Below are positions 942 to 38,735 of a DNA stretch of 39,912 nt, in pieces. The notes beneath the pieces are model-generated. The model saw only the letters and a program-made list of their open reading frames with translations, was not told the DNA's origin and searched no databases. Position numbers and translations under genes: made by a program. The DNA is from a virus. The stretch's first letter is position 1, and every line of letters starts with the position of its first letter. Location: IMG/VR virus record IMGVR_UViG_3300037541_000208, positions 1 through 39,912 of that record, one strand, 5' to 3'.

Positions 942-3900
942 ATGCCTGCAAGTAAGAATACATGGAACAAAGGATTAAATTCAGATTTATCCAAGTTAAA
1001 AAGTCAACCTGATGGTTACCTTAATGCTAATAACATTAGGGTAATTACTGATGAGGGTAACTCTACATTTGCTATTGAGAATGTAAAAGGTAACAAGTTT
1101 AGCTTTAGATTACCTGTTGTTGAAGCTACTTATAAGATTGATTTTTCAGAGCAGTCTGGTCCTGTTGATGTTACAATAAGCAGAGGAACAGTTAGTATAA
1201 CTTTTACATTAAGTAATGTTGAAAATAAGAATAATGATTTTCTAGCTCAAGAGATTAATACTCAGATACAAGCATCTGGTTTACCAGATAAACAATATGT
1301 AATTGCATACTATAATAATAACTTTATTGTTATATATGACTTTCTACCACAATCTAGTAACAGTCAAGGTATAGTTGTAAGTACATTACCTAACTGTTCA
1401 GAGTTAAGAACTTCTAGAGTATCATTTCATACTATATTAGGATGGGGTTATTATAATGATAACTTGGTAATGATAAGTTGTTTTAGAAATAGTAACTCTG
1501 AAGATCCTCAAGATACTGAAGGTTTTATATGGGATTGTAAGTATGATAATGCTACTAATGAAATTGTAAGTTCTCAAATAGAAACTCAAAACTATCTATT
1601 ACCATTAACTACTTTAAAGTATGCAGGTAAATTAAACCTATCAAGACAGTATGCTATTAATGAGCACTTAAAATGTAGATATGAATCTACAGAAATAATG
1701 AGATTAATATGGACAGATTGGAATCAAAACTTAAGGCTTTGTAATCTATTTGATCCTCAAATATGGGCTACACCAGAAGAGCTATTCTCATATATACCTA
1801 TTCACTTACCGCAGAAACCTATTGTAAATAGAGTAATTATAGGTGGTACATTACCTACAGCTAAGTATCAGTATTTCTATCAACTGTTTTCTAGCCAAGG
1901 AGCAGAGTCTAGTTACTCTCCAGTGAGTAATTTAATTAATTTATTCCCTGGTCAACTATCACAGTACATTACAACAGGAGAAAACCCAGGAGTTTCTTCA
2001 GCTAAATCTGTAGAAATTTTCTTACAGAACTTAGATACTAATTATGATAGTATTAGAATAGGATATGTTATATATCAAATACCTGATTTTCCAGAAGCTT
2101 TCTTTTTTGATGAAAGACCTGTACCACCAACAGGTGAAATAACACTAGTACACAATGGTAATGAGAATGATATTCCTGTAGACTCTGGGGAGATTGCTAA
2201 TCTTAACAGACCACCAGAAGTATTTAAGACTATTGATGTAGTTAGAAATAGATTATTTGCAGCTAATGCTGTAACTAAATTCTTTGATTTAGAGTTTGAC
2301 GCTAGAGCTTATAGATTTAATTCAGACAATACTGCTAATTTATATGACTCTACAGATAATTATACTAACCCTTCAGTTGTAATTGAAGCTAATCCTGCAG
2401 GAGTTATACAAAATGTATTTGTTGATAATATTGATCAAGGTAATAATTTATTAGCAATAGAAGACACAAGAGATTTAGTTAATCCTTTTAATAATGAGGA
2501 TGATACCAATATTTTAAATGATTCAGATTGGGCTGCAAATTCTCAATTTAAATACCAATCAGATGGTGTTACATTAGGAGGTACAGGAGCTAACATTAGT
2601 TATGAGTTTGTAACTAGAGAAATGCAAGCAAGAATTGGGGGACCTGGTGGATTGGTTACTGGTTCGCCATATGTTAGACCTAACTTGGATTTTAATGGTC
2701 AATATACTTCTGAATTTGCAGATACTTATTCATACGCAGGGGGTGCTGATGTTGCTTTAGATACTATGAAAAGTCCTTATTTAGATACTATATTTACTGG
2801 CTATGCTAGAGGTGAAGTATATAGATTTGGTATAGTATTCTATGATAGATATGGCTACCCTTCATACACTTATTGGATTGGTGATATTAAATTTCCATTT
2901 GCATTTGATGATGGTTTTGCACCAAGTAATAATTATACCACTCCTACTGGAGGAATTCCTGGTGGACATGATGTATTTACTAAACAACTAGGAATTAGAT
3001 TTTCATTAGATACAGACTCTCCACAATTCCAAGCAATTAAAGATCAAATATCAGGTTGGTCTTATGTAAGAGTTAGAAGAGATTTAGCTAATAGTACAAG
3101 ATTAGGTACAGGATTTATCCAACCTACTTGGATTATAGAAGCATCTAATGTTGATGGATACAGTAACTCATATGCACTAACTCCTTTTGATTGGGGAACA
3201 TCTAGGTGGGGTTCTTTCCTAGGTCCAATATCTTCTTTATTTAGAACAAGATTACAGTTTCAAGCATTCTACTCACCTAATTTCTTTAATAGAAAAGCAG
3301 GTCTATTTATAGGTGGTGACTATATTAGAATGATTGGTAGAACTAATGTATTTAATGATATAGTTTTTCCTTTTGAACAAACTTACACTCAAAGTATATT
3401 ATCACCTGATCCAGATAACACTTTCTTATTTTATATAGCAAGTAGTGATTTTAACTATAACTATGCGGATTCAACTACACTATTCAGTCCTAGTACTGAA
3501 GATAGTGAACCAACTAGTGCTGATTATACTGCTAACAATAATAAGTACGATGTTTTAAATAGAGTATATGTAACATATTCAAGTAATGAAAATGTTATAC
3601 TTCCTAATAACGGTGGGTTAGATTTCCCATTTGTAAACATGGGTAATGCTAATTTTACTGAAACAAACAGTCTTCAATTTAAAGAATGGGGAAGTGCCTT
3701 AGAATTATTAAATATAGGTAATGGAGCAACAGGTCTTCCAGATACCACCAATGCACAAGCGTTTTTAAGAACTCCAATATATTTAGCATCATACGAAAGG
3801 TATTTAACTGTACAGTATGGTGGTAACTTAAGGTCTGATAGATATGCTAATGAGTATATTCTTACTAATCACTTCATGCCTTACAGTAAAACAGTTACTG

Positions 3901-5360
3901 GTGTAGTTAGTAATGGAGTATATGGTGGTGATACTTGGGTTAACTACTATGATATTCAAAGAACTAACCCTAACTTTGATGGTGAAGGTGGTAGTGGTTA
4001 TGATGTAGGTAATGAAGATGAATTTACTAAAGCCACAGGAGTAGCAGTATTCTTTCCATGTGAATCCTCATTTAATACAGAGTTAAATATTAGTAAACAA
4101 CACGCATCTGTTAGAACTACCGCTAACAGTATATTTCCATCAAGTTATCAATATAATGCTGCACTATCTCAAGAGAACACAACTAATATCTTTATATCGA
4201 AAGCTTTCAATCAAACTAATGTTAAATATGAACCACATACTATATATGGTACAGAACCTAAGTTAGATAATGAAAGACTGGATAGCTGGAGAAAGTTTTT
4301 AATTAATAACTCACTTACTGTTAATGGTAACTATGGTGAAATTAATAGAATCATACAGTTTAATGATAAACTTTTCTACTATCAAAATGATGCCTTTGGT
4401 GTTGCATCTGTTGATGAAAGAGTACTTGCTAATGAGGGTGATACTTCACAAACTCAATTAGGTACTGGTACTTTACTTCAAAGATTTGATTATGTATCTA
4501 CTGAAACAGGGTCTAAGCATTCATTTGCTGTAAGATCAACTGGATCAGCAATCTATCATTATGATGCTTTTATTAATAAGCTATTTAGATACACAACTAC
4601 TAAAGCTAAAGATGGTACTTCATCAGCAGGTGTATCTCCACTAACTGACATTAAAGGATTAAGTGGATTCTTTAGAACTGCTTTTGTAGATACTAATCTT
4701 AAATCAGAAGATAAGATTCTTAGAACAGGAGCTGATGGTAGAGTAGGTATTACATCAGGATATAACTCAGAGTATAATACTGTTTACTTTACATTCTTTG
4801 ATGAACCTAATAGTATTAAATATACTATATCTTATAATGAACTACTAGATTCATTTGAATCATTTTATGATTTCTACCCATCTATGTATCTTAATATGAG
4901 AAAGAGATTCTTGTCAATAGATCCATCAAATACTGGAGAAACATATATACATAATATTGGTAAGAGAAATACATTTTACAATCAACCTTACTCATTATCA
5001 TCAGTTACATTTAGAGTTAATGAAAATTCAGATCTTGTTAAAACATTTGATAACTTTATTATTAACACAGAAGTGATTCTGGATAATATCCAACTAGCAG
5101 AAACTATAACTCAACTAGGTATAGTGAATGACTATCAAATAGTTAATCAACAAAATGCTAACTTTACACAAAAGATTAGAAGCTGGAGAAAGCAGATACC
5201 TAGGGATGAAACTAATCCTAATTTAAATATTAAACCTAGAATTGCAGATAAGTATATAGATGTTACATTCACACATGATCCTTTAAATCTTGATAAGACA
5301 TTTAGACTACATGATGTAATAACTGAGTATTCAATGAGAAGTAAAATATTACCTAGATAA
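942..5360 (+). CDS. tail stabilization / muzzle protein (P22 gp10-like, crAss type)
   Basis: This 1,472-aa protein starts at an ATG 3 bases after the previous stop. Its N-terminus (NKGLNSDLSKLKSQPDGYLN, then NIRV at residues 31-34) has the G-N-x-D...Y-x-x-A-x-N pattern that opens the large tail proteins annotated in crAss-like phages as the P22 gp10-like stabilization protein, and in virion structures as the muzzle. The rest is rich in Tyr, Asn, Thr and Gly, with many short beta-strand-like segments and no predicted membrane helix, as expected for a beta-propeller/beta-sandwich structural protein. It is expected at the distal tail, closing the channel until ejection. No catalytic motif is visible. 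Two bases separate it from the next gene, so the two are probably co-translated. The family call rests on the N-terminal pattern, size, composition and gene order; no profile search was possible. Confidence 0.78.
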   Translation: MPASKNTWNKGLNSDLSKLKSQPDGYLNANNIRVITDEGNSTFAIENVKGNKFSFRLPVVEATYKIDFSEQSGPVDVTISRGTVSITFTLSNVENKNNDFLAQEINTQIQASGLPDKQYVIAYYNNNFIVIYDFLPQSSNSQGIVVSTLPNCSELRTSRVSFHTILGWGYYNDNLVMISCFRNSNSEDPQDTEGFIWDCKYDNATNEIVSSQIETQNYLLPLTTLKYAGKLNLSRQYAINEHLKCRYESTEIMRLIWTDWNQNLRLCNLFDPQIWATPEELFSYIPIHLPQKPIVNRVIIGGTLPTAKYQYFYQLFSSQGAESSYSPVSNLINLFPGQLSQYITTGENPGVSSAKSVEIFLQNLDTNYDSIRIGYVIYQIPDFPEAFFFDERPVPPTGEITLVHNGNENDIPVDSGEIANLNRPPEVFKTIDVVRNRLFAANAVTKFFDLEFDARAYRFNSDNTANLYDSTDNYTNPSVVIEANPAGVIQNVFVDNIDQGNNLLAIEDTRDLVNPFNNEDDTNILNDSDWAANSQFKYQSDGVTLGGTGANISYEFVTREMQARIGGPGGLVTGSPYVRPNLDFNGQYTSEFADTYSYAGGADVALDTMKSPYLDTIFTGYARGEVYRFGIVFYDRYGYPSYTYWIGDIKFPFAFDDGFAPSNNYTTPTGGIPGGHDVFTKQLGIRFSLDTDSPQFQAIKDQISGWSYVRVRRDLANSTRLGTGFIQPTWIIEASNVDGYSNSYALTPFDWGTSRWGSFLGPISSLFRTRLQFQAFYSPNFFNRKAGLFIGGDYIRMIGRTNVFNDIVFPFEQTYTQSILSPDPDNTFLFYIASSDFNYNYADSTTLFSPSTEDSEPTSADYTANNNKYDVLNRVYVTYSSNENVILPNNGGLDFPFVNMGNANFTETNSLQFKEWGSALELLNIGNGATGLPDTTNAQAFLRTPIYLASYERYLTVQYGGNLRSDRYANEYILTNHFMPYSKTVTGVVSNGVYGGDTWVNYYDIQRTNPNFDGEGGSGYDVGNEDEFTKATGVAVFFPCESSFNTELNISKQHASVRTTANSIFPSSYQYNAALSQENTTNIFISKAFNQTNVKYEPHTIYGTEPKLDNERLDSWRKFLINNSLTVNGNYGEINRIIQFNDKLFYYQNDAFGVASVDERVLANEGDTSQTQLGTGTLLQRFDYVSTETGSKHSFAVRSTGSAIYHYDAFINKLFRYTTTKAKDGTSSAGVSPLTDIKGLSGFFRTAFVDTNLKSEDKILRTGADGRVGITSGYNSEYNTVYFTFFDEPNSIKYTISYNELLDSFESFYDFYPSMYLNMRKRFLSIDPSNTGETYIHNIGKRNTFYNQPYSLSSVTFRVNENSDLVKTFDNFIINTEVILDNIQLAETITQLGIVNDYQIVNQQNANFTQKIRSWRKQIPRDETNPNLNIKPRIADKYIDVTFTHDPLNLDKTFRLHDVITEYSMRSKILPR

Positions 5361-5362
5361 TT

Positions 5363-8300
5363 ATGGCTGAAAAAAATTCACTCTGGAAGAACATTAGAAA
5401 CAAAGCTGCACAAAATAAAAGAACTGGTGCTACACCTAAAAAGCCTAGTGCAGAAATGCTTAGGCAAGAAAGAAAAATTAAATCTGAGAAAGCTGAAGGA
5501 GGACCTGTAGGCGAAGATGATAATTTACTTTACAGACAGCCAAATATTCCAATGGAGGAATATCAACCAGAGTTATTTGATAGCTCTAGTATTTCTTTGA
5601 GAAGATCAGGGTCTAATAAAGTTAATTTACATACTCCAGAATATCGTAAGGAAATTAGTAAACGATTGAACTTTAATCCTTACCTTAATGTAATTACCCC
5701 TACCCCAAATACATATGTATATTCTGGAGGTATTGATGCAGATTTAAATCTATTAAATAAAAATAATAATAGGTTAAGTCTAACAGGAGGGCTTGGTACT
5801 GGTATTGTAAAACACCCTGGTGGTTCAGAATATATTGGAGTAGAACCTTCAGTAGGTTTATCTTTTACTAGAAAATTTAATCAAGGTGGACCATTTAATC
5901 CTGATGGAGGTACTTACGCTAATAAGCAAGGAGTGATAATGGGTCCTGTTGAGAATCCTGATGGTAGTTATACATTACCTGTTAGTAATGAAGGATTACC
6001 ACAAGTTAACCTCCCAGAGTTTGAAGTTGCCTTGGAATCTAATCCTTATGGACCAATTACATTTGATGAGTATTTATCTAGTAGTTTTAACCCTTTGCAA
6101 TTATTACTACCCAGTGTTCCAGAATATCAACAACAATTTAGACCTGATGGTACACTAATACCTGCTAGTGGTAGAGTAGATATTGATAATACTCTTCCAT
6201 TAGCATTTATGGGAGCTAAACCTAGTTATGCTAATTTTGAAAGAGGGGTTACTAAATTAGATTTAAATAATACACATAAATTAAATCCTTGGGCATTTAA
6301 GACTGATCCTAATAAATTTTATAGGCAAATAGATAATACTACTTATAAAGAAGGATTGCAGAGTGGTTTAATAAAAGGAAAACAAGGTATCGATAAAACT
6401 CAAGGTGAGGGTATTATTAATTTAAATAAAGCATTTGCAGATGATGCTTATTACAATAAAGGAAGTTTATATTATAAGGATAATAAAAATTTACCTTATT
6501 TATATGAAGCAAATTTACCTGAAGAGAAATTTATACCTAAAGTAAACGGTAAAACAAAAAAATTTACAAAAGAAAATACTTCTGTTAGAGTATCCAAAGA
6601 ACCTATTTCAATTAATGATCCTTTTATAAAAACTTATAAAAAAGATTGGTTACAAGGGTATAAACCAGTAAAAGGTTATAAAGCTGATGGTGGATATATA
6701 TATAATGTAGGTGGACCCTTTGGTGTAACTGATGAAGGTAACTCTGTAACATTATATAATAAAACTCAGTATGATCCTAATCAAAATAAAACTATAAGTT
6801 ATGTAGGTAGTGATGATAATAAATACTACATGATGCCAGGTGACACTATGATCCAAGGTAGATTACCTGAATTTGAAGTTGTAGAACAAGGTATTGAAAA
6901 ACCAAAATCTTATAAATCAATTTTTCCTAAAGGTTTATCAGAAAGAGATGCAGAAAATACATATAGTGATTTTAATGATCAATATCATGATTATTCTAGA
7001 AAAGGAAATATATTAAGAGATACAGTAATAGATTTAACTAATCAAAAAATGGGTTGGTTTCCATTTGATGCTATTCCTAGTGAACAGTATTCTAGCATAC
7101 TAGGAAATAACTATATTGAAAGAATAGTAGGAGGTACTGGTAGTCCTGAAGACTTTGCTAAGAATTGGACAACAAGAATGTCAAATCCAGAAGATACTTT
7201 TAGAAATAAAGATTATGCAGAAGAAGCTAGAAGTTATTATCATAGTAAAGATATTCCTGCTTTCTATGGTATAGAAAACGGTAAGTTTAAAGTAGGTAAT
7301 CCACAAGATTTTTCTGAAAATACAATGATTGTTCCTGTAAGAAATAGTACTACACCATATTCTAAAGTAGATTATGAAAATGGTCTACTTACTGATAAGC
7401 TATATACTTATGATAAAACAGGTAATAAAACATGGAATTTAGATAATAAAGATAAATTTATAGTTTATTCTCCTAAAACTAAAAAGTCATTTTTTAGAGC
7501 ACAGTCTAATGATATGTCATTTGGAAAATCAAAAGAGGAAGAAATTAGTTTAGCAAAAACTAAAAAAATACTTGAGGATTTTTTAAAACAAAATCCTGAT
7601 GCATATATTATTCCTATAGATGAAGGTAGGTTTAGATCATATATTGCTAATCCTAGTGGAGTTACAGAAAATCAATTTAAAAATTGGAATTCAAAAGCAG
7701 GTACGGCTCTTGAACACTATTTAATACAAGATCCAGAAAATACAAATACACCAATAAATTCTCCAAGTGGAACTGGTTATGGATATAATATGGGTATAAT
7801 AAAACAGCAAGCTAAAGGCGGTCACATATATGATACTGGTGGTTTTGTGTATGATGGTGTTGATTTTACTGGTGATGATGGATCAACTAAACCTAAAAAA
7901 GATTTACAAACAGCAGCACCAAAACCTCCTGTATACACTAGAGAAAATTATCTAAGAGATATTCAAGCTAATACTGATAAATATTTTAAAGATGGGACTT
8001 ATGTAACACCTTATACTGAAATTACCAAGCCTGATGAGAAAAACTGTATTAATGGTATCTGTTACTTAACAAGAAAATTGACTAACAATGCTCTAAATAT
8101 AGATTACACAAGTAATCCTAATTTTGAAACAGACTTAAATAAAAATAATTTTTACAGGGCAAAGTTAGAAGATGGTTTTGAAATAGGAGATATTTTACAA
8201 TACTATACTCATAAAGGTTCTATGCTGAGTGGATTTCCAGGTAAAGTTACTCCAGTGAATTCAAAAGATCCTTGGACTCAACATGCTGTATCAATAATAG

Positions 8301-11300
8301 GTAAAAGAATAGATGATAAAGGAAAAACTTTTTTTAAAATAGTTAATAACCGAGGTACAGATATTGCTAAAATTGAAGAAATTTCTGAGCTGGATTTAAT
8401 GAAAAGAGCTCAAGAGGGTTACAATCATTATGATGGTATAGTTGTAAATAGATATGATCCTGAAAAAGTTCAAGAGTTTAATAGAATTAAAAAAGAGAAT
8501 GCTGATATTTTTAGTGGTAAAAATAGTTATGCTAAAGAATATGACAATGCACAATACACAGGAGCATTTAAACCTAAAGATATTTACGGTAAAACTCTAG
8601 AAGAAAGCGCAAGTTCAGTAGAGTTTAGAAAAATAATAAATGAGTTATATCCTACATTAGGCAAAAGTTCTAATATGCCTAAAGAAGATTTTGATTTTCT
8701 AATGAACTATCTATATGGTATAGGTCACCAAGAAAGTAATTGGGGTAATAGTGGTATGAAAGAAATTAAAGATGCTATACCTGAGTCTCTTTATCCTACA
8801 TTAAGAGGTTGGTCAGATTCTGATAAAGATGATTGGAGACAAGATTATTGGAATAGTAATGCTAATAATGTTAAAAATAAATATAAAAGCGTAGATGAAT
8901 TTAAAAAATCTACTTTAAATAGTAATGTAGATCCTGAAGTAACTGAATATCTAAGAATGCATTCTCCAAAGAGTAAAGGAATATTTCAACAAAAAGAACT
9001 TTCAGAAAGAGGTAGATATTTTAATTATGGATTTGATGATACTAAATCTCAAGTAGCTAGTGCTGCTGCTTTATTAGTAGATAATTACCATAAAGTAAAA
9101 AAGAAATATCCAAATAAACCAGAAGGAGAACTATATCAATTAGCTGTTTTAATGCATAATTCTCCTTCAAGAGCTCTTAATCCTACATATGCAGATTATT
9201 ACCCAAAACGTAATGATGTTGATTACTTTAATAAAGTAAAAATAAAAGCATCACAACCTCAAGAAATAAAACAGGCAAGCCCTTTAGTAAAATCTCAAAC
9301 AATAAGTAAATCAGAAAAAGAAAAAATACTACAATTCTTAAATAAGACTAAAAGTACAGGAGGTAATATATACTCTAATGGTGGTCCTATAAAGTATGAC
9401 GATGGTGGTGGTATAGGTGAAGATGGTGGTACTAAAGTTCTAAATAGAGATGGTTTACTAATAGCTCCTACATTACCTGAATTTGAAGTTGAAGGTGTAA
9501 GATCTCCTGGTAGCGGATTACCACTAGCATCAGGTAAAACTGAACCTACAATGGGTCCAGTTGAAGCTATGCTATTTGCACCAGCTGCTGGATCAATATT
9601 ATCTAGTACAGTACCTAGAATAGGTAGTAGTTTAATGACTGGATTAGGAAGATCATTACCAGGAATGTCTACTGTTCCTGGAGCAACTTTTGGTAATCTT
9701 TTAGGTGCCTATGGTGCTACTGATGCAATGGTGAATAGAATACCATATGTACCTGGTCAATTAGCAAGAGGTGAATATGGTAACGCATTTGCTAATATTC
9801 TTACATCTGGTTTAGATTTATATGGAGCTAATATGGTTAGCCCAATAGCAAAAGTTCCAGGTCAACTTCTTAGAGAACAAATATATAATGCTGTTGATCC
9901 AGTTGGGTATGGTGTTAGAGAAAAACTATTATATGCACCAAAAACATGGGCAAGAAATACATTTAAACCTTCGCAGAGAGTTGAAAGAATTGGAAAGGGT
10001 TTTGATCCTTACGGTGCATACTCTAAGGATGAACACATTCAGTTGGGTAAAAATAGATTGGATTCTTGGAGAATAGGGTTAAACCTAGATCAAAAATATG
10101 ATACATTTAGAAATCTAGGAAACGGTACTTATAGAATTAACGCAATGAAACCTGATGAAGATTTGTTAAATGATCTTTACAGTGATATTCTTGCAAGTGA
10201 AGTTACTAAATCAGGATATCATTTTGGTGATGATCCATTAGTTAATATTGCAAATAGAAATATACTTGCAAAAGCACGTAGGACAATTACTAACCCTAAA
10301 AGTTTTAAAAGCCTTTACAGTAGTCTGGCAAATCAGACTGCACCTTGGCAGCAAAATAGAATTGTAGAAACTGCAAAAAATCCAGAATTTAGACATTCAA
10401 TATATGATGTAGATACTCAAGGTATAATGGGTCAATATAGATGGGATGTAAAAAAACTAGATGACGGTACTTTACATTACCAAAGTAATGATACTTGGGA
10501 TATTAATCCTTGGGAAAAAAGAGGATCTGTTAGTTTAGATCATACAACAGCCTCTCCAGGATATAGAAAATGGAATCCTTTTTCAAATTTAGAGTTTTTA
10601 AAATTAGTTGGAGGTAAACCATTTAAGATTCAAAATAATTTTAAAGTAAACCCTAAAACTTATGAAATAATTGAATCATATGAAAATGGTGGTCCAATGC
10701 AATATAAAAGAGGGGGAGATTTAGAAGACGTTGGTAAATTATTGGTAAATACAATAGCATCTCCAGTTGAACAAATATCAGGTAATAATTTTGTTAATTG
10801 GAATTATGATAATAAATGGGCTGCTGATGCTGCAGCTGTATCTGAAGGAATTATAGGTGCAGCCACTGATGTTACAGGTAGTATATTATTACCAGGAGTT
10901 TATGGACAAGCTAAAGGTGCTATACAAGGAGTTACAGGTAATATAGGGAATAGTACTGAATATCAAAGAGGTGCTAATCAATGGGCTAACACAACAGGTC
11001 AAATAGGTTCTAGTGTTGGTGATTTAACAGCTGGTATAATTGGTGGTGATGCTAAACAAATTGTTTCAGGATCAGGGCAACTTTTAAATACTGTTGGTAA
11101 AGAAACTGGTGTTAAAGAACTAAGTATGCTTGGACAAGCTGCTGGAGTTGGTTCAATGTTTATAAATCCATCACAAGCTACATCTTCAACTGATAACTCA
11201 ACAATACTACCTGACGCAGGTATTCCAACAGAATCTATAGTAAACCAAGGAATGTCATTTGCTGCTCAAGGTGGGCATGTAAACAATGAAAAATATTTAG

Positions 11301-13000
11301 TAAATTCGCAAACAATGAAAGGTAGATATAGTAACTACAGAAATAGATATGCCAAAGGAGGCGTAATTAAAGATAAACTTAAAGCCAACGGCATAGTTAA
11401 AATACCTTCTTATGTAGGATATCATTCTGAACATCCTGATGGTGGTCAAGCAATGGGTAAAAATGCTTCAGTTGAAAGAGATGAACTTGTTCAATTTGCT
11501 GGTGGTGGTCATGCAGGAATGGGCAATCCTGAATATGTTTATCCTGCAGATGTAGATAACACTGCAAATACAAACCCTGAAGAAGCTATATATATGCCAA
11601 AAATGACTAGTGATTACAAAATGATTACTGATAAATATGGTATGCCAACATTTACTGATAAGTCACCTGCTAAATGGTTAGAAGAAAAACTAGCTATGAG
11701 AAATAGTGAGTTTAGAGTAAATGTTGATGGTCCAACAAAAGAGTCTAATAACCAAGCTGAAACTGTTGCAAAAGGAGGTAGAGAAGTTTCATTACAAGCT
11801 AACCAACTAAAAGAACAGTTAGCACAAGCTGATGCTATGAGAATTGCTGAAGAAGAATATGCTGCTGCTTATGGTGGTACAATCTCTAAAAGATATAAAG
11901 GATTAAATATGCCTAGAAAGGCTAAAGGTGGTTATACATATAATGCAATGACACAACCTATGTTAGCACAAGGTGGTCCAATGGTATCTAATATCCAACA
12001 ACCTTTTAATGGACCTGCTGCTCAGAACAGAGGTGGTATGATGATGGCTAATGGTGGTATGATGAATCCAGAAGAGCAGATGATGCAAGAACAAATGATG
12101 CAGCAACAGCAAATGCAACAGCAAGGTGGTCAAGATCCTATGATGCAAATGGTTCAACAAGTTGCACAAGCAATTATGGGTGGTGCAGATCCTAGAAAAA
12201 TAATGCAAGACCTTATGAAATCTGGTATGCCTGAAGAACAAGTACAGCAAATTGTACAAGTTGCTATGCAAGAAATAGAAGGTCAGCAACAAGGTATGCA
12301 ACAACAAATGGTACCTCAACAAGGTATGGCTATGGGTGGTAGAGTGGCTTATGACGGAGGTACTCCTCCAGAAGGAATTAAAAAATATGAGCATGAAGAA
12401 CCTTGGATGAATTACGCAGCAGGGTTTGCTCAAGTAGTACCTTCTTTATATGGAATTAAAAAGTTTTCAGATCTTTCTAAAAGAACTATGAATCCTAGCT
12501 ACTCAGCACCTTCTAAAACTAGTTTAGAAAATGCTAGGATAGCTGCTAAAGAAGAAGGTAGAGGAATGCTAAATGCAGGATTAGATAAAGTCAGAGGAGT
12601 TGCTTCAAATGCTAGTCAAGTATTTAATACAACAAGAGAAAATATAAGTAAATATCTTAAAGGTATTGCACCTGTTATTTCAGAGTTGTATGAGAGAGAA
12701 GCAAATACTAATGCTCAGTTTGAACAACAAAGTAATTTAGCAAACCAACAAGCTAGTAATGCATTTAAACAATTAAATGAAGAAATGTACCAATCAGGTA
12801 TTCAAGGTATAATTGACTCTTCTCAAGAAGCTGGTAAAATGACTGGTGAAAATCTTAAGTCAATTAATAGATTAAGAAACCAAAGAATGCAAATAGAAAA
12901 CATGGATACTGATAATTACATATGGGTAGAAGATGAAAATGGTAACCCAGTAAAAGCAGTTAAATCAACTGATGGTAAGTATAGAATAATGAAAAAATAA
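5363..13000 (+). CDS. giant multidomain virion cargo protein with peptidase-like and lysozyme-like domains
   Basis: At 2,545 aa this is the likely counterpart of the cargo protein encoded just after the muzzle gene in crAss-like phages. It reads as discrete domains joined by Gly-Gly linkers and three copies of LPEFEV (residues 217, 501 and 1371). Visible parts: a possible ADP-ribosyltransferase-like segment starting FYRQIDNTTYKEGL near residue 319; a C/H/N pattern like NlpC/P60 or CHAP peptidases (C895 or C900, H974, N995); a transglycosylase/lysozyme-like domain with HQESN (E1124) and SKGIFQ (1204-1209); two hydrophobic Gly/Ala-rich segments at about 1395-1490 and 1789-1925 that could insert into membrane; a Met/Gln-rich tract at 2224-2327; and a coiled-coil C-terminus. 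The mix suggests an ejected protein that opens the cell wall and lines a membrane passage. The enzyme calls rest on short motifs only. Confidence 0.8.
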   Translation: MAEKNSLWKNIRNKAAQNKRTGATPKKPSAEMLRQERKIKSEKAEGGPVGEDDNLLYRQPNIPMEEYQPELFDSSSISLRRSGSNKVNLHTPEYRKEISKRLNFNPYLNVITPTPNTYVYSGGIDADLNLLNKNNNRLSLTGGLGTGIVKHPGGSEYIGVEPSVGLSFTRKFNQGGPFNPDGGTYANKQGVIMGPVENPDGSYTLPVSNEGLPQVNLPEFEVALESNPYGPITFDEYLSSSFNPLQLLLPSVPEYQQQFRPDGTLIPASGRVDIDNTLPLAFMGAKPSYANFERGVTKLDLNNTHKLNPWAFKTDPNKFYRQIDNTTYKEGLQSGLIKGKQGIDKTQGEGIINLNKAFADDAYYNKGSLYYKDNKNLPYLYEANLPEEKFIPKVNGKTKKFTKENTSVRVSKEPISINDPFIKTYKKDWLQGYKPVKGYKADGGYIYNVGGPFGVTDEGNSVTLYNKTQYDPNQNKTISYVGSDDNKYYMMPGDTMIQGRLPEFEVVEQGIEKPKSYKSIFPKGLSERDAENTYSDFNDQYHDYSRKGNILRDTVIDLTNQKMGWFPFDAIPSEQYSSILGNNYIERIVGGTGSPEDFAKNWTTRMSNPEDTFRNKDYAEEARSYYHSKDIPAFYGIENGKFKVGNPQDFSENTMIVPVRNSTTPYSKVDYENGLLTDKLYTYDKTGNKTWNLDNKDKFIVYSPKTKKSFFRAQSNDMSFGKSKEEEISLAKTKKILEDFLKQNPDAYIIPIDEGRFRSYIANPSGVTENQFKNWNSKAGTALEHYLIQDPENTNTPINSPSGTGYGYNMGIIKQQAKGGHIYDTGGFVYDGVDFTGDDGSTKPKKDLQTAAPKPPVYTRENYLRDIQANTDKYFKDGTYVTPYTEITKPDEKNCINGICYLTRKLTNNALNIDYTSNPNFETDLNKNNFYRAKLEDGFEIGDILQYYTHKGSMLSGFPGKVTPVNSKDPWTQHAVSIIGKRIDDKGKTFFKIVNNRGTDIAKIEEISELDLMKRAQEGYNHYDGIVVNRYDPEKVQEFNRIKKENADIFSGKNSYAKEYDNAQYTGAFKPKDIYGKTLEESASSVEFRKIINELYPTLGKSSNMPKEDFDFLMNYLYGIGHQESNWGNSGMKEIKDAIPESLYPTLRGWSDSDKDDWRQDYWNSNANNVKNKYKSVDEFKKSTLNSNVDPEVTEYLRMHSPKSKGIFQQKELSERGRYFNYGFDDTKSQVASAAALLVDNYHKVKKKYPNKPEGELYQLAVLMHNSPSRALNPTYADYYPKRNDVDYFNKVKIKASQPQEIKQASPLVKSQTISKSEKEKILQFLNKTKSTGGNIYSNGGPIKYDDGGGIGEDGGTKVLNRDGLLIAPTLPEFEVEGVRSPGSGLPLASGKTEPTMGPVEAMLFAPAAGSILSSTVPRIGSSLMTGLGRSLPGMSTVPGATFGNLLGAYGATDAMVNRIPYVPGQLARGEYGNAFANILTSGLDLYGANMVSPIAKVPGQLLREQIYNAVDPVGYGVREKLLYAPKTWARNTFKPSQRVERIGKGFDPYGAYSKDEHIQLGKNRLDSWRIGLNLDQKYDTFRNLGNGTYRINAMKPDEDLLNDLYSDILASEVTKSGYHFGDDPLVNIANRNILAKARRTITNPKSFKSLYSSLANQTAPWQQNRIVETAKNPEFRHSIYDVDTQGIMGQYRWDVKKLDDGTLHYQSNDTWDINPWEKRGSVSLDHTTASPGYRKWNPFSNLEFLKLVGGKPFKIQNNFKVNPKTYEIIESYENGGPMQYKRGGDLEDVGKLLVNTIASPVEQISGNNFVNWNYDNKWAADAAAVSEGIIGAATDVTGSILLPGVYGQAKGAIQGVTGNIGNSTEYQRGANQWANTTGQIGSSVGDLTAGIIGGDAKQIVSGSGQLLNTVGKETGVKELSMLGQAAGVGSMFINPSQATSSTDNSTILPDAGIPTESIVNQGMSFAAQGGHVNNEKYLVNSQTMKGRYSNYRNRYAKGGVIKDKLKANGIVKIPSYVGYHSEHPDGGQAMGKNASVERDELVQFAGGGHAGMGNPEYVYPADVDNTANTNPEEAIYMPKMTSDYKMITDKYGMPTFTDKSPAKWLEEKLAMRNSEFRVNVDGPTKESNNQAETVAKGGREVSLQANQLKEQLAQADAMRIAEEEYAAAYGGTISKRYKGLNMPRKAKGGYTYNAMTQPMLAQGGPMVSNIQQPFNGPAAQNRGGMMMANGGMMNPEEQMMQEQMMQQQQMQQQGGQDPMMQMVQQVAQAIMGGADPRKIMQDLMKSGMPEEQVQQIVQVAMQEIEGQQQGMQQQMVPQQGMAMGGRVAYDGGTPPEGIKKYEHEEPWMNYAAGFAQVVPSLYGIKKFSDLSKRTMNPSYSAPSKTSLENARIAAKEEGRGMLNAGLDKVRGVASNASQVFNTTRENISKYLKGIAPVISELYEREANTNAQFEQQSNLANQQASNAFKQLNEEMYQSGIQGIIDSSQEAGKMTGENLKSINRLRNQRMQIENMDTDNYIWVEDENGNPVKAVKSTDGKYRIMKK
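5887..10740 (+). repeat. dispersed Gly-Gly / LPEFEV linker modules inside the cargo protein
   Basis: LPEFEV is encoded at 6011-6028, 6863-6880 and 9473-9490. Gly-Gly clusters of the form GGxIYxxGG occur near residues 444-452, 819-827 and 1333-1341, with related GGPF and GGPMQYKRGG copies near 174 and 1776. They fall between the recognisable domains, so they look like repeated inter-domain connectors or processing sites. The protein copies are similar, but the DNA copies have diverged at third codon positions, so they are not recent duplications. Confidence 0.7.
12032..12343 (+). repeat. Met/Gln-rich low-complexity tract
   Basis: In-frame, low-complexity coding sequence gives runs such as NGGMMNPEEQMMQEQMMQQQ between residues about 2224 and 2327 of the cargo protein. 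ATG, CAA and CAG codons dominate. A spurious open frame appears on the opposite strand here as a result. The tract probably encodes a flexible or amphipathic segment; no function can be assigned. Confidence 0.8.
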
Positions 13001-13005
13001 GAAAT

Positions 13006-15279
13006 ATGAAACTAGCTCAATTTAAACCAACTCAATATGTAGACACTTATTCTGATTTACCTATTGAATTTATGCAAGGTCAATTAGAAAATGCTCAAAA
13101 AAGGTATGATATTCAAAGGTCTGCTTTAGATAAAGAAGTTACCTTATTAAAAAATATAGAATATGGAGAACTTGGTAAAGACATTTATGGAAATTTAAAA
13201 TCTGATTACGAAACTCTTTTTAAAGGAATGAGCGATGAGCTAGGTTTAACAGGAGATGTATCAACTATATCTAGAAAATTTTCAGATGCTGTCAGAACAA
13301 TGGCTTTAGATGAAAGATTTAAAGAGCTTAAAAAAGAAAATGAAGCTTATCAAAAATACCAGGAAAATATATTAAAAAACCCAGGAGCAGTAAATCTTTT
13401 ACCGTATGCAACTGAAGCTGGTTTACAAATAGGCAAAGATGTACCGCTTAGCCAAGCTTTACAATACTATCAAGTAACTGAACCTCAGAATAGTTTTGAC
13501 GAAATTGAAAATACTTTTAGATCTTTAAAAGCTTCTCAAATTGATGATAATACTTGGGAATTTAAAGACCCTCTAACACAAAAAGTTTACAGAGGAGGTG
13601 CAGATGTTAAAGGTTTATCTGATAAAAGATTAAAAGAAACATTAGATTCTTATTACAATACATGGAATGTAAGTGGTAAATCACAACACCATAAACAAAA
13701 AATATTACAAGCTGCAGGGTTAAACCCTATAACAGACATGGGTGTTTTTAACACACCTAAAGGTAAAGAGCTGTATGATAAGTATGCTGAATTTTTAATG
13801 GGGTATGCTTATACAGAAAAGGATCCTGCTAAGCAGGACGAATCTAGTGGATCAAAATCAAAAACTGGTACTAAAGAGGAGAAAGAAGAAATACCATTCT
13901 TACCAATGACTTCTACTACATATGGTTACCAAAATGGTAATGGTTATGTAACTAATGCTGATGGTAGCGTTACTGATATTCCTTTAAATAGTAGACCAAA
14001 CTATGAATTACAGTTGGATAACTATGATAAAGCTGACGAAGATTTATTTTTAAAACTAGAATACCTTGAATCAATTAATGCGCCTTTAGCAGAAAGAAAA
14101 GCTATGGCTGATAAAATTCAAGAGAATGGTAGAAAAAGAGATATTATTGCAAGAGAGCAAGAAAAAATTGAAGGTGATTTATATGGGTATAAACCTGATC
14201 CTAATGCATTGAAAAATGCATTAATAGAAACATTAGGTAATACGCCAGGGTTTCCAGAAGTTAATTCAAGTAATTATGGTGTAAATTATGAATACATTGA
14301 AAAAGGAGGGGAATATTATATAAAATATATTAACCCTACTCCTGCTGAAAGATTTTTAGGTATTAAACCTGGGCAAGAACAAAAAATGACAACTAATGGA
14401 ACTACAGGTGGAAAAGGTTCTGAAAGTGTAAATAGTAAAATAAGTAGTACATTAGAAGGTAAAGATGCTGAATTGTTTAAAAGGTATGATGCATATAATT
14501 CTTATTTAACATCAGGTAAAGCATATAGTATTACAAATTCAGATGATGTTAAAATCTTGACAACCTTTATACAAGGCTATCAAAACAAAAATCTTAAGTA
14601 TAAAAATGTTCTAACTGATAAAGAAACTAATATTGATTCTTTTGATTCTATAATACCAAAAAATGAAGATGGTGTTCCTGATTATTCTAGATTAAGTTAT
14701 GAAGTACTTCTTGATGAAATAGATGGACCAGTACTTGTAATACATGGTGTTGGTGAAAATGGAAGTGAAGGATATGAAGTCCCTCTTGAAAATTTTGGTA
14801 ATGTAAGAGAATTCTTTGGTAGATTAATATCTCCTGAAGAACAAGCCTATATGACAAAATTTACAGAAGCTAGTCAAAGTTTAAAAGCAAGTAAAAATAA
14901 AAACGAAGGTTCATTTAATGTAAACAGATTTGATGGTTCTGCAAATAGTATTTCTTTTAGTAGAGAAAAAATTGGAAGTGGCAAGTACGGATATACAGTA
15001 GCTAATTCTTCTGATGGTACTAAAGATAAAATGTACGGTAGTATGGAAGAAATGATTTATGGTGAGATATTACCATATTCTATGGAAGACTCAGTACTTA
15101 AACTAAATTATGACAAAATGCTTCAAGCTGTTAAAAGTAATGATTATAATAGCGCAAGTCGCTATATGAATACCATTAATCAAATAATGATTGAAAAAGA
15201 AAAGAATAAAAGAGATGGTAGCTCGGGAAAGCAGAATCCCCAGACCAGCAGCAGGGGTCCTCTAGGTCTGGGGAGATAA
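13006..15279 (+). CDS. internal virion protein (zero-frame product)
   Basis: This 757-aa protein starts at an ATG 5 bases after the cargo protein's stop. The N-terminal 120 residues are charged and helical (MKLAQFKPTQYVDTYSDLPI, then long Glu/Lys-rich helices), a style common in internal or ejection proteins of podoviruses. A low-complexity Ser/Lys/Glu linker lies near residues 276-298. I recognise no catalytic motif. Gene order matches the protein between the cargo protein and the RNA polymerase giants of crAss-like phages. The last 16 codons form an unusually GC-rich stretch containing a slippery heptamer at codons 740-742 and a stable stem, so some ribosomes probably shift -1 at Lys742 and continue into the lysozyme frame, giving a 931-aa extended form. 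The Gln/Ser/Gly-rich tail after residue 742 would be present only in the unshifted protein. Confidence 0.85.
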   Translation: MKLAQFKPTQYVDTYSDLPIEFMQGQLENAQKRYDIQRSALDKEVTLLKNIEYGELGKDIYGNLKSDYETLFKGMSDELGLTGDVSTISRKFSDAVRTMALDERFKELKKENEAYQKYQENILKNPGAVNLLPYATEAGLQIGKDVPLSQALQYYQVTEPQNSFDEIENTFRSLKASQIDDNTWEFKDPLTQKVYRGGADVKGLSDKRLKETLDSYYNTWNVSGKSQHHKQKILQAAGLNPITDMGVFNTPKGKELYDKYAEFLMGYAYTEKDPAKQDESSGSKSKTGTKEEKEEIPFLPMTSTTYGYQNGNGYVTNADGSVTDIPLNSRPNYELQLDNYDKADEDLFLKLEYLESINAPLAERKAMADKIQENGRKRDIIAREQEKIEGDLYGYKPDPNALKNALIETLGNTPGFPEVNSSNYGVNYEYIEKGGEYYIKYINPTPAERFLGIKPGQEQKMTTNGTTGGKGSESVNSKISSTLEGKDAELFKRYDAYNSYLTSGKAYSITNSDDVKILTTFIQGYQNKNLKYKNVLTDKETNIDSFDSIIPKNEDGVPDYSRLSYEVLLDEIDGPVLVIHGVGENGSEGYEVPLENFGNVREFFGRLISPEEQAYMTKFTEASQSLKASKNKNEGSFNVNRFDGSANSISFSREKIGSGKYGYTVANSSDGTKDKMYGSMEEMIYGEILPYSMEDSVLKLNYDKMLQAVKSNDYNSASRYMNTINQIMIEKEKNKRDGSSGKQNPQTSSRGPLGLGR

Positions 15280-15286
15280 GTGAGGA
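15225..15286 (+). promoter_or_regulatory. programmed -1 ribosomal frameshift signal
   Basis: The heptamer G GGA AAG is at 15225-15231, correctly phased to the upstream frame (tcg gga aag). After a 5-base spacer there is a perfect 10-bp stem, TCCCCAGACC at 15237-15246 pairing with GGTCTGGGGA at 15265-15274, with an 18-base loop. Loop bases TCCTC (15258-15262) can also pair with GAGGA (15282-15286), allowing an H-type pseudoknot. The zero-frame stop TAA is at 15277-15279. The -1 frame is open from 15222 through the lysozyme domain to 15800 and has no ATG before that domain. GGGAAAG is the known slippery site of the lambda G/GT tail genes. Heptamer, spacer and stem are seen directly; frameshifting itself is inferred. 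Confidence 0.85.
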
Positions 15287-15800
15287 AAGGTTAATTAAAT
15301 TTAACAATGCTTTGTATGCTCATGAAAGTAAAACTTCAGGAGGATATAAGGCTGAAGCAACTGGTAGTTCTGCAGTTGGTAAATACCAACACTTATGGGA
15401 TACACATGGAGTAAAACAAAAAGGTCAAGAAGTTTCTGAGATTGAAAGAGTTACAGGAGTTAAATCAAGACAAGAATACCTAAATAATCCTCAAGCGCAA
15501 GAAAAATATCAGCTTCATTTAATATCTCAATATGTAAATAATATTAGTTCATTAAGATCAACTTTTAATGTTCCTAATGATACTCCTGATGAAGCACTAA
15601 TGGCTTTACAGCATTTTAGAGGATTGGGAGGTGCTAGAGTTTATTTAGAAGCATTACAAAGAACAGGTAGCTATGATGAAGCTCAAAGTGCTGTTGATGC
15701 TTATACATTAAAAGATCTTAGAAAAAGAAACCCTAAAGCAACATTACCTAAAAACTCATCAGTAAGGGCGTACTTAGAAAAAGTACTATCCAATATATAA
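15231..15800 (+). CDS. lysozyme/transglycosylase-like domain, probably expressed by -1 frameshift
   Basis: This frame encodes a muralytic fold: a helix ending ALYAHES with the likely catalytic Glu, followed by ATGSSAVGKYQ, which matches the Glu-x(n)-G-x-GxxQ layout of lysozyme-like transglycosylases. It would cleave peptidoglycan during genome entry. The frame has no ATG; the only nearby start, TTG at 15312, would give 162 aa but would cut off the helix leading into the catalytic Glu (EERLIKFNNALYAHES). Read from the -1 shift at 15231 it adds 189 residues to the first 742 of the upstream protein, placing the catalytic residue at E774 of a 931-aa fusion. The first three codons upstream of 15222 include stops, so the domain cannot begin further back in its own frame. 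Independent TTG initiation remains possible but less likely. Confidence 0.8.
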   Translation, partial: AESPDQQQGSSRSGEISEERLIKFNNALYAHESKTSGGYKAEATGSSAVGKYQHLWDTHGVKQKGQEVSEIERVTGVKSRQEYLNNPQAQEKYQLHLISQYVNNISSLRSTFNVPNDTPDEALMALQHFRGLGGARVYLEALQRTGSYDEAQSAVDAYTLKDLRKRNPKATLPKNSSVRAYLEKVLSNI

Positions 15801-15812
15801 GTTATTTTACAT

Positions 15813-15820
15813 TATATTTG
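15813..15820 (+). promoter_or_regulatory. Bacteroidetes-type -7 promoter box (TATATTTG)
   Basis: TATATTTG matches the Bacteroidetes -7 consensus TAnnTTTG and sits in the 38-base gap before the RNA polymerase giant, 18 bases from its ATG at 15839. No clear -33 TTTG is present upstream. The position suggests that the polymerase giant can be transcribed separately from the genes before it. Confidence 0.6.
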
Positions 15821-15838
15821 CATAAATCATAACCATGT

Positions 15839-34428: not shown

Positions 34429-34857
34429 TTAACTACCTGTACTACCAAAGCCACCTTCAGACCTATCAGATTCTGATAATTCTTCTGACTCTTGTAGCTC
34501 AATCTGTGGATAAGGTACAATCATAAGTTGACATACTCTATCTCCTGGTTTATAATGTGAAGTATCAGGAATATGCTTAAACCTGACTTTAACTTCTCCT
34601 CTATACCCAGAATCAATTACACCAACAGAGTTAGTTAGAATTAAACCTGAATTACTGATAGAACTTCTAGGAAATATTAATCCTACATATTCTTCAGGAA
34701 TTTCAAAAGCTAGTCCTGTACCATACTCTAAATAACCAAACTCATTCTTATCAACCTTAGTTAAACTAATAGCTGTAAGATCCATAGCAGCATCCCCAAC
34801 CTTACTATAGGCTGGAGTTACTGCTTTAGCATTAAGTTTTTTAAACTTTACAATCAT
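34429..34857 (-). CDS. dut: dUTP diphosphatase (dUTPase)
   Basis: This 142-aa protein hydrolyses dUTP to dUMP and diphosphate, preventing uracil incorporation and feeding dUMP to thymidylate synthase. All five motifs of trimeric dUTPases are present: GDAAMDLTA (21-29), PRSS (63-66), GVIDSGYRGE (79-88), GDRVCQLMI (105-113) and the C-terminal RSEGGFGSTG (132-141) that closes over the active site. The length is normal for the family. The start overlaps the previous stop as ATGA, indicating translational coupling with the upstream small gene. It is the last gene of the leftward operon, directly before a terminator hairpin, and pairs functionally with the ThyX and ribonucleotide reductase genes upstream. 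Confidence 0.97.
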   Translation of the reverse strand: MIVKFKKLNAKAVTPAYSKVGDAAMDLTAISLTKVDKNEFGYLEYGTGLAFEIPEEYVGLIFPRSSISNSGLILTNSVGVIDSGYRGEVKVRFKHIPDTSHYKPGDRVCQLMIVPYPQIELQESEELSESDRSEGGFGSTGS

Positions 34858-35195
34858 GCTGCATTAAATAGTTTTTTAATCCAAGTAGGAATCTTATTAA
34901 GTTTACTTAGGTAACCTGATGATACAATACTTTCATTAGTTAATGAAAATCTTAGTTTCTGATTAGCACTTTTAAGATCTTTAACTGCATCTTCAAGATT
35001 AGTAATCTTTTGTTCACAACCTCTAAGACCATTCTCTAATGAAATTAACTGTGAATTCTTTTCATCAACCTTTGCATTGTGCTCTTCAATAGTTACAAAC
35101 ATTACAGGATTACCTGCTTCTGTTTTAACTTCATTGTTAACTTTTCTGTTATGAGGTTTCTTACCTGCATTTTTAACTGGACTATTGTTTTCCAT
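34854..35195 (-). CDS. small coiled-coil protein, unknown function
   Basis: This 113-aa protein has a basic, disordered N-terminus (about residues 1-28), then a heptad-patterned helix at about 38-85 (ENGLRGCEQKITNLEDAVKD and flanking residues), and a short amphipathic tail ending TWIKKLFNAA. It overlaps thyX by 14 bases at its start and dut by 4 bases at its end, so it is translated within the nucleotide-metabolism operon. I recognise no family. The coiled coil suggests oligomerisation, and the context allows a partner role with ThyX or dUTPase, but nothing in the sequence shows this. Confidence 0.75.
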   Translation of the reverse strand: MENNSPVKNAGKKPHNRKVNNEVKTEAGNPVMFVTIEEHNAKVDEKNSQLISLENGLRGCEQKITNLEDAVKDLKSANQKLRFSLTNESIVSSGYLSKLNKIPTWIKKLFNAA

Positions 35196-35826
35196 TTTTA
35201 GTTATTAATTTAATTGTTTGTTCAAAAGGATTTCCCTCAATAGACTTTACTAAGTCTAACATTTGTTGTGCTATTTCTCTAATTTCAACCTGAGCATGTT
35301 CACTATTTCTAAGCTTTAGAAAGTTAGCAAAGCTTCTCATGTTAAACATTACATCAGCTTGTATTTGAGAATTATAAGTCTTAAAGAACCTAGCAGATTC
35401 TTTAGCTCTCTTTCTACCAAGTATAGGAGTTAAATCTGTTAAACACTCATGATAGGCTTTATTAGAAGCTTCTGTAAAATAACTTAACTTACTTACCCAT
35501 ACATCAAGTACTTCTTGATTTTTCCAATCTGCAGGTAAATAATACTTATCTTCCTTTAACTCTTTATATCTAGCTGATTCTGCATTAATAGAAGCTATCC
35601 TATGCTTTAATAAATGTATATGGGATGCAATATCACAATCCACTAAGAAATGCACTGTAGCCTTCTCAAATGGTGTCTCATGACCATTACTCCATAAGAA
35701 ATTAATCAATGCAGGTATCCTAGCTTTCTTATCTTCTGTAAGCTCTCTTGAGGTGCTTGTCCATGCAGAACAAGCTATAACCTCATCAGAGCCATAGAAT
35801 CCTAATAATTCTACAGTATTATCCAT
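35182..35826 (-). CDS. thyX: FAD-dependent thymidylate synthase ThyX
   Basis: The protein makes dTMP from dUMP using methylene-tetrahydrofolate, NADPH and FAD. Family marks are HETPFEKATVHF (49-60), the signature KHRIASINAESARY (74-87), in which Lys replaces the first Arg of the usual RHR-x7-S, and NMRSFANFLKLR (162-173) followed by EHAQVEIR. I chose the ATG at 35826, giving 214 aa and starting MDNTVELLG, because it lies 2 bases past the upstream stop and matches the usual short N-terminus. An ATG at 35844 would add six residues and overlap the reductase gene by 16 bases. It is flanked by ribonucleotide reductase and dUTPase, a coherent dTTP pathway. The Lys-for-Arg change is conservative, and the rest of the active site looks intact. 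Confidence 0.96.
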   Translation of the reverse strand: MDNTVELLGFYGSDEVIACSAWTSTSRELTEDKKARIPALINFLWSNGHETPFEKATVHFLVDCDIASHIHLLKHRIASINAESARYKELKEDKYYLPADWKNQEVLDVWVSKLSYFTEASNKAYHECLTDLTPILGRKRAKESARFFKTYNSQIQADVMFNMRSFANFLKLRNSEHAQVEIREIAQQMLDLVKSIEGNPFEQTIKLITKNGKQ

Positions 35827-35828
35827 AA

Positions 35829-37751: not shown

Positions 37752-37772
37752 TTTTAAATTTTTTAAGGGTGC

Positions 37773-37780
37773 CAAAGATA
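37773..37780 (-). promoter_or_regulatory. Bacteroidetes-type -7 promoter box before nrdJ (TATCTTTG)
   Basis: On the minus strand TATCTTTG matches TAnnTTTG and ends 21 bases before the nrdJ ATG at 37751. It directly follows the U-tract of a hairpin. No -33 TTTG is visible at the usual distance, because the hairpin arm occupies it. It probably drives the nrdJ-thyX-dut operon. Confidence 0.6.
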
Positions 37781-37781
37781 T

Positions 37782-37820
37782 AAAAAATTCCAGACTTCCT
37801 ACCCCTTTATATCTGGAATT
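37782..37820 (-). terminator. hairpin with U-tract upstream of nrdJ (terminator or attenuator)
   Basis: On the minus strand, AATTCCAGA (37820-37812) and TCTGGAATT (37794-37786) form a 9-bp stem with a 17-base loop, followed by a run of six T (37787-37782). This is an intrinsic-terminator layout that would stop transcripts coming from the phosphoesterase gene. It abuts the -7 box of the next operon. Confidence 0.75.
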
Positions 37821-37865
37821 AACCTGCGATCTTAATGGTTATCTCAAGGGTACAGGTATATTTTT
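37821..37865 (-). promoter_or_regulatory. possible structured leader upstream of the nrdJ hairpin
   Basis: Between the phosphoesterase stop and the hairpin, minus-strand TACCCTT (37852-37846) can pair with AAGGGGTA in the hairpin loop (37807-37800) with one bulged base, and ACCTG/CAGGT (37857-37853 with 37826-37822) can form a short stem. These pairings could modulate the terminator. No B12-box of cobalamin riboswitches is visible. Tentative. Confidence 0.3.
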
Positions 37866-38735
37866 TTATATACTCATTGGAATGTTTATTGGGAGTTTAC
37901 CACCCAATATAACACAACAAGCCACTACTGGCTTTCTAGTGTTCTGTTTACCATATGCAAATGCATACTTTTCATGGTCAATACCACAACCTACAGTAAC
38001 TCCAAATATTAAATCCTTGTAACTTGCCAAGAATCTAGTATTCATTACTGTATGTAAGTGACCTATTACAGTAGATTGTCTGTTTTCTCTAGCAGCATTA
38101 ATAGCTGCCATCTCTCCAGATAACCCTGTACCATGTTGGTAAATAACACCATTGATTTGATGTACAAAATCCCATTCCCAAGTAGGAGGACTTTGCAATA
38201 GTTCTTGATAAGTCTTTAACCAGGTCTTAGGAAGACCAGCTGTAAAAGCTTTTCTAAATGGTAATGCATCATGATTTCCAATGCAAACTTTTACATTAGG
38301 AAATGTGTAATACCATCTTTTCATTCTTTCTAAAGCTAGGCTAAACTCATCACCTGCTGACATACCTTCAGGATCCTTTTCATGATAACTAACTGCATGA
38401 TTATCAACTGCATCACCAATGTGAACTACAGTACCACAATCATACTCTTCCTGAATTGATCTACAAAACTCTAAGTAACCTTCTTTTGTGAAAGGTTCAT
38501 GAGGATCTCCAATTACAAGTACATTATCAGGATTACCATCTAAGTAAGGTTCAACAATACTCTCACTAGTTTTATCAATATTTCTAAATAGTTCTTTAGC
38601 TAATTTGATTATTTCTGAATTATTTTCACCAGTAATCTGACTAATTATTTCAGATGATTTTTTGTAGTAACCAGGCTTAGACCTTAAGAACTCATATACA
38701 AGATTGATTCTTGTATTGTAACTTTGTTTACTCAT
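37866..38735 (-). CDS. calcineurin-like metallophosphoesterase
   Basis: This 289-aa protein carries the full metallophosphoesterase motif set: GDPH (D77, H79), GDAVDN (D108, N112), GNHD (N154, H155), H201 in YQHGTG, and GHLH (H226, H228). These residues bind two metal ions and hydrolyse phosphomono- or diesters. An N-terminal extension of about 65 residues (helical, resembling a small winged-helix or substrate-recognition domain) precedes the catalytic core. The substrate cannot be told from sequence; phage relatives act on nucleic acid ends, nucleotides or protein phosphates. It lies between ung and nrdJ on the minus strand, with its own -7 box 13 bases before the ATG and a terminator-like hairpin after it, so it may be a single-gene transcript. 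Confidence 0.9.
   Translation of the reverse strand: MSKQSYNTRINLVYEFLRSKPGYYKKSSEIISQITGENNSEIIKLAKELFRNIDKTSESIVEPYLDGNPDNVLVIGDPHEPFTKEGYLEFCRSIQEEYDCGTVVHIGDAVDNHAVSYHEKDPEGMSAGDEFSLALERMKRWYYTFPNVKVCIGNHDALPFRKAFTAGLPKTWLKTYQELLQSPPTWEWDFVHQINGVIYQHGTGLSGEMAAINAARENRQSTVIGHLHTVMNTRFLASYKDLIFGVTVGCGIDHEKYAFAYGKQNTRKPVVACCVILGGKLPINIPMSI

Follow-up and report, generated by a model that had tools for sequence, protein, structure and literature searches.

Tail-assembly chaperones and capsid proteins are the best-known sites of programmed frameshifting in tailed phages, and the slippery heptamer used by the lambda G/GT pair is G_GGA_AAG. Frameshifting at lambda G/GT serves a tail-assembly gene (Levin 1993; Xu 2004; as cited in PMC8008677 and PMC10885494), the heptamer G_GGA_AAG is reported to be highly shift-prone in E. 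coli (PMC5009743), and a frameshift has also been described in the K1F capsid gene (PMC13370021). A transglycosylase is carried by the T7 ejection protein gp16, and domains of this type are exchanged among ejection proteins (PMC8954989). The Zeta group of crAss-like phages has disrupted RNA polymerase ORFs whose expression mechanisms are yet unknown (PMC7886860), the Quimbyvirus reverse transcriptase involves a double frameshift (PMC8008677), and a further mention of frameshifts alongside crAss-like phages concerns sequencing errors (PMC10569736). In line with what the initial annotation of the locus described here had supposed, no frameshift is reported at this gene in the Crassvirales literature searched, which included few subscription papers or preprints. 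The frameshift mechanism itself is already known, but its use at this crAss-like gene appears to be new.

The locus lies in IMG/VR record IMGVR_UViG_3300037541_000208, which was analyzed over its whole length (39,912 bases, positions 1-39,912) and is referred to below as the window. The window starts inside a gene matching the Pfam family CrAss_Ring_1, and the gene after it encodes a 1472-amino-acid protein that matches the crAss muzzle protein (Pfam, E 3e-144). Because of these ring and muzzle matches, the window is a fragment of a crAss-like phage, as had been claimed; its muzzle protein is only about 26% identical to the muzzles of known Crassvirales. ORFs of 2545, 757, 4480, and 1694 amino acids follow 3′ of the muzzle gene on the same strand, in that order. 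Positions 34429-38735 hold a divergently oriented block of nucleotide-metabolism genes on the minus strand, comprising a dUTPase, a ThyX-type thymidylate synthase, a B12-type ribonucleotide reductase, and a metallophosphoesterase.

The 757-amino-acid ORF, which provides the zero frame of the proposed frameshift, stands two genes after the muzzle gene, as does cargo protein 2 of crAss001. Mass spectrometry has found gp45-gp47 in crAss001 virions, with gp45 and gp46 as expected components of the ejection channel (PMC10172136); the phi14:2 products at the corresponding position are likewise virion proteins by mass spectrometry. This gene position suggests that the zero-frame protein is a virion or ejection protein. 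The term "internal virion protein" in the initial annotation was thus a fair reading of the gene order, but profile homology to crAss001 cargo protein 2 does not accompany it. The PF25712 model (Crassvirus cargo protein 2) recognizes crAss001 gp46 and matched nothing in the window or its relatives, an hhalign comparison of the zero-frame protein with gp46 was not significant, and homology to phi14:2 g068 or to the cr1_1 ORF was not detectable. Since profile comparison revealed no gp46 homology, the 757-amino-acid protein was not filed as cargo protein 2. The ORF also has no PHROG match, and its neighbors, the crAss ring and muzzle genes and the 4480-amino-acid ORF, do not form a tail-assembly-chaperone context.

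The site anatomy between 13006 and 15800 was confirmed (Table 1). The heptamer occupies the position and codon phase claimed for it, with GGA and AAG as zero-frame codons 741 and 742, and GGGAAAG occurs only once in the whole window, both strands counted. The spacer and the perfect, GC-rich 10-bp stem were also as described, with full pairing of TCCCCAGACC and GGTCTGGGGA, and the zero-frame stop follows directly after the stem. Start candidates in the -1 frame of the window begin with a TTG at 15312, and an ATG appears only at 15600, 321 nt past the zero-frame stop.

Table 1. Positions of the features at the candidate frameshift site in the window.
Feature	Position	Strand	Remark
Zero-frame ORF, 757 aa, probable virion/ejection protein	13006..15279	+	gene position of crAss001 cargo protein 2
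Slippery heptamer G_GGA_AAG, in phase	15225..15231	+	unique in window; kept in 7 relatives
Spacer CAGAA, 5 nt	15232..15236	+	
Stimulatory stem, 5′ arm TCCCCAGACC	15237..15246	+	
Stimulatory stem, 3′ arm GGTCTGGGGA	15265..15274	+	
Possible pseudoknot stem 2, 5′ arm TCCTC, in loop	15258..15262	+	weak in window alone, better in L024
Possible pseudoknot stem 2, 3′ arm GAGGA	15282..15286	+	
Zero-frame stop TAA, 2 nt 3′ of stem	15277..15279	+	
-1 frame ORF, opens 3 nt 5′ of heptamer	15222..15800	+	first ATG 15600
C-terminal extension after shift, 189 aa, lysozyme/transglycosylase-like predicted fold, invariant Glu32	15231..15797	+	

Queried with the zero-frame ORF, cultured phages yielded no match at either the DNA or the protein level, single-sequence scans of viral contigs with the same ORF were unsuccessful, and a scan of genome contigs found no relative. 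Because the cultured-phage searches with this ORF came back empty, the muzzle protein was used to find relatives, and divergent IMG/VR contigs were gathered through it, through record searches, and later through scans with the zero-frame protein. The resulting set comprises seven relatives (L024, L025, L026, L028, L035, L036, and L038; L032 was dropped as identical to L024), whose zero-frame proteins are 25-52% identical to that of the window. Six of the seven carry GGGAAAG in phase and L038 carries GGGAAAA, in all cases 14-19 codons 5′ of the zero-frame stop. The -1 frame of the relatives opens 0-36 nt 5′ of the heptamer, provides extensions of 184-713 codons, and has its first ATG 150-750 nt past the zero-frame stop. 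Across these and the sister loci (about 239,000 codons), in-phase GGGAAAG occurs nine times elsewhere, at no point closer than 150 codons to the end of an ORF, and the eight overlaps of about 20 codons each hold seven in-phase copies where about 0.006 would be expected. The -1 frame is also conserved at the protein level between the window and L024, with 59% amino acid identity and codon-position changes of 50/34/66.

The comparison of relatives that the initial annotation had proposed as a check shows heptamer, spacing, and a stem kept at zero-frame identities of 22-52%, with compensatory stem changes in six lineages. The contrary pattern, in which the signal decays beside a good start codon on the second frame, was not encountered; in no lineage does a second-frame ATG lie less than 150 nt past the zero-frame stop. 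Two further elements were seen near these sites. In L038 (about 8290-8316), the sole GGGAAAA site has AGGAGGAA about 10 nt upstream, similar to the Shine-Dalgarno stimulator of E. coli dnaX. The sequence TATATTTGC, which resembles the Bacteroidota -7 promoter box TAnnTTTG, lies at 15813-15821 in the window and also just 3′ of the -1 stop in L024, L025, L026, L028, and L036; it recurs between the -1 stop and the following giant ORF, and the single copy in the window is at chance level.

The stem of the window, sought 4-9 nt past the heptamer, is stronger than those of 200 of 200 shuffles and of 200 of 200 random positions (p ~0.005), whereas the folding z-score of the whole region is only -1.5; the stem signal is for this reason one of placement and not of raw energy. 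A stem is significant in seven of the eight phages, the exception being L028. Six phages (the window, L024, L025, L026, L035, and L038) share a homologous stem in one register, whose 5′ side has CCYCA and whose 3′ side has TGGGG. Since MAFFT put the loop gaps wrongly, the stem arms were cut by hand in register before counting, a procedure that favors the stem, although the slid-register controls nevertheless fail clearly. With the arms excised in this manner, 93% of cells in the six stems are paired, five of the ten pairs carry compensatory changes in both partners, and none of the 500 shuffles or slid registers reaches their covariation score. L036 has an unrelated perfect 8-bp stem that begins 6 nt past the heptamer, and L028 has only a weak 5-bp stem.

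The H-type pseudoknot put forward in the initial annotation could form in the window through the TCCTC/GAGGA pairing, but this pairing alone is not significant there (p 0.06-0.16), and the argument for it comes mainly from the relatives, above all L024. Pairing of the loop with downstream sequence is possible in most of the phages and is best in L024 (7 bp, p 0.002-0.008). A Fisher combination of the eight genome-based p-values gives about 5e-4, an approximate value given that the lineages are related. A pseudoknot beside the frameshift site is likely.

The in-phase heptamer, the covarying stem, and the conserved -1 frame support the programmed -1 frameshift signal that had been claimed, and it is very probable that a genuine -1 programmed ribosomal frameshift makes a minority extended protein at this locus. 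Alternatively, the two frames could be two genes, with the second re-initiated near the zero-frame stop at the TTG at 15312, at a GTG in some relatives, or at a non-standard start. The TTG of the window does lie only 33 nt past the stop, and L026, L035, and L036 have a GTG within the overlap; the positions of these candidates all differ, however, and in L024, L025, L028, and L038 GTG and TTG are likewise missing ahead of the first -1-frame ATG, which leaves at least 150 nt past the stop without any of the three start codons. Initiation at the TTG of the window would also cut off the start of the first predicted helix of the extension, which ends in an invariant Glu, and re-initiation in general would leave the conserved in-phase heptamer and stem unexplained. 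It is very unlikely on these grounds.

Metagenomic contigs may carry indel errors, and a sequencing or assembly error could have split what is in truth one in-frame fusion gene, but eight contigs from different samples all show an identical one-base offset at this heptamer, which makes such an error extremely improbable. Hardly any likelihood attaches, either, to the stem being a transcription terminator or another RNA element of the gene end that is unrelated to frameshifting. A strong GC-rich stem at the end of a gene would be in keeping with such an element, but a U-run is absent, no terminator is called, the stem has no match in Rfam, and heptamer and spacing are conserved jointly with a stem. 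Transcriptional slippage was set aside, as the G run and the A run at the site are only three bases long each.

A -1 frameshift at this site would add 189 amino acids in the window, and this extension has no match among curated families, hydrolase families included, and one weak match to a PHROG of unknown function. An alignment unites six extensions out of the eight. The AlphaFold2 model of the window extension is helical and confident (pLDDT 84.7), and in it the invariant Glu32 terminates the first helix and a GKYQ motif is conserved, as in lysozyme-like enzymes. The fold matches are mostly of one kind but have poor E-values, none of them below 0.05; the best include MltE and T4 lysozyme from the PDB, with SLT and LT_GEWL domains among viral models. 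Distant homologues found by an alignment search include proteins whose equivalent region matches "baseplate hub subunit and tail lysozyme". Baseplate hub proteins containing Gp5_OB (L192, L194, and L195) have distant homologues of the lysozyme-like domain encoded in frame.

The extension of L036 starts instead with a clear M23 peptidase (PF01551; 100.5 bits where the cut-off is 28.7; E 6.3e-29), followed by a domain that it has in common with L028 (51%); a moderate model of this common domain (pLDDT 75.5) gave no meaningful fold match. Past the first domain, the extensions of L025, L026, L028, and L036 have another C-terminal region, related among them and about 400 amino acids long, for which there is again no family match. 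On the predicted fold and its conserved residues, the extension of the window would be a peptidoglycan hydrolase of lysozyme/transglycosylase-like type. It is rather unlikely that the frameshift is real and the extension is a cell-wall or receptor-binding module or a structural tail. The poor fold E-values, the lack of a curated hydrolase family for the window extension, and the first domain of L028 with no meaningful fold match would fit a non-enzymatic role, but the invariant Glu that closes the first helix, the GKYQ motif, the homologues within tail-lysozyme proteins, and the M23 peptidase after the same site in L036 all argue for an enzyme.

In a maximum-likelihood tree, the eight frameshift phages are set apart from G008, G011, and G014 with support of 100/100, and fall into two deep groups. 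No comparable overlap was found at 34 loci downstream of the muzzle gene in sister and more distant records, and the annotations of crAss001, phi14:2, and cr1_1 show no such extension at the corresponding position, where in crAss001 the following gene begins almost at once. A search of 36 sister records with lysozyme profiles, run without a positive control, returned no match.

Protein identities before and after the frameshift site disagree in several pairs of phages. The window and L038 are 25% identical upstream of the site and 50% downstream, and L025 and L026 are 23% identical upstream and 59% over the full extension, while identity falls from 49% upstream to 23% downstream between L026 and L028 and from 46% to 23% between L036 and L038. 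This disagreement is most simply read as the outcome of recombination at the junction that left the heptamer in place. The six phages with a lysozyme-type extension are the same six that have the homologous stem, and the other two have different stems; therefore the stem may travel with the module and not with the upstream gene. Being present in both deep groups, the homologous stem would be either ancestral or spread with the modules. It is somewhat probable, at a little better than even chances, that the heptamer acts as a conserved socket that joins a virion-ejected protein to interchangeable wall-degrading modules swapped by recombination, with a stem that seems to travel with the module. 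If so, the swaps would preserve the translational ratio and hence the enzyme dose per virion, and a real frameshift here would mean that a recoding signal outlives the domains under its control. On a larger scale, the C-terminus of the muzzle protein in L012/L028 (record G009) is 94% identical to that of the window and the next-but-one gene only about 25%, a difference that, set against window positions 942-15800, points to whole-module replacement by recombination.

The most likely reading of the locus as a whole is that frameshifting puts a predicted peptidoglycan hydrolase on a minority of the copies of a probable ejected virion protein. Most ribosomes would read to the TAA at 15277 and produce the 757-amino-acid protein, and a minority would pause when they meet the stem or pseudoknot, their P site on GGA and their A site on AAG. 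The two tRNAs would then presumably slip in tandem one base back, from GGA/AAG to GGG/AAA, and the shifted ribosomes would read 189 further codons to give a 931-amino-acid fusion. The frameshift ratio would thereby place the wall-cutting domain on only some copies per virion; these extended copies would open the cell wall locally during genome entry, and their minority share would limit both the enzyme dose and the bulk inside the ejection channel. If real, this arrangement would offer a testable answer to how the wall is breached with few copies of a wall-cutting enzyme. Standard annotation would split the extended protein and miss or mis-start its enzymatic half.

Among described systems, lambda G/GT shares with this locus the -1 direction, the same heptamer, and a minority C-terminal extension of a virion-region gene. 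Unlike in lambda, however, the gene does not encode a tail-assembly chaperone and has the muzzle gene on one side and giant virion-region genes on the other; its extension is predicted to be a wall-cutting enzyme, and a strong covarying stem follows the site. The 10A/10B capsid gene of T7 and K1F likewise shifts to -1 near its 3′ end to yield a minority of extended virion subunits, but in another gene and another heptamer context, and 10B carries no enzyme (PMC13370021). Cargo protein 2 of crAss001, gp46, occupies the same position after the muzzle and cargo protein 1 (PMC10172136), and differs in lacking an extension and in belonging to PF25712, to which the protein here has no detectable match. 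In the baseplate hub/tail lysozymes of the T4 gp5 type, distant homologues of the extension domain are encoded in a single frame. In T7 gp16, as probably here, a peptidoglycan-cutting domain is joined to an ejected virion protein, ejection being suggested here by gene position. The gp16 domain is N-terminal, encoded in frame, and present on every copy, whereas the domain here would be C-terminal and present on frameshifted copies only, and a low enzyme dose would, unlike in T7 gp16, be reached by frameshifting.
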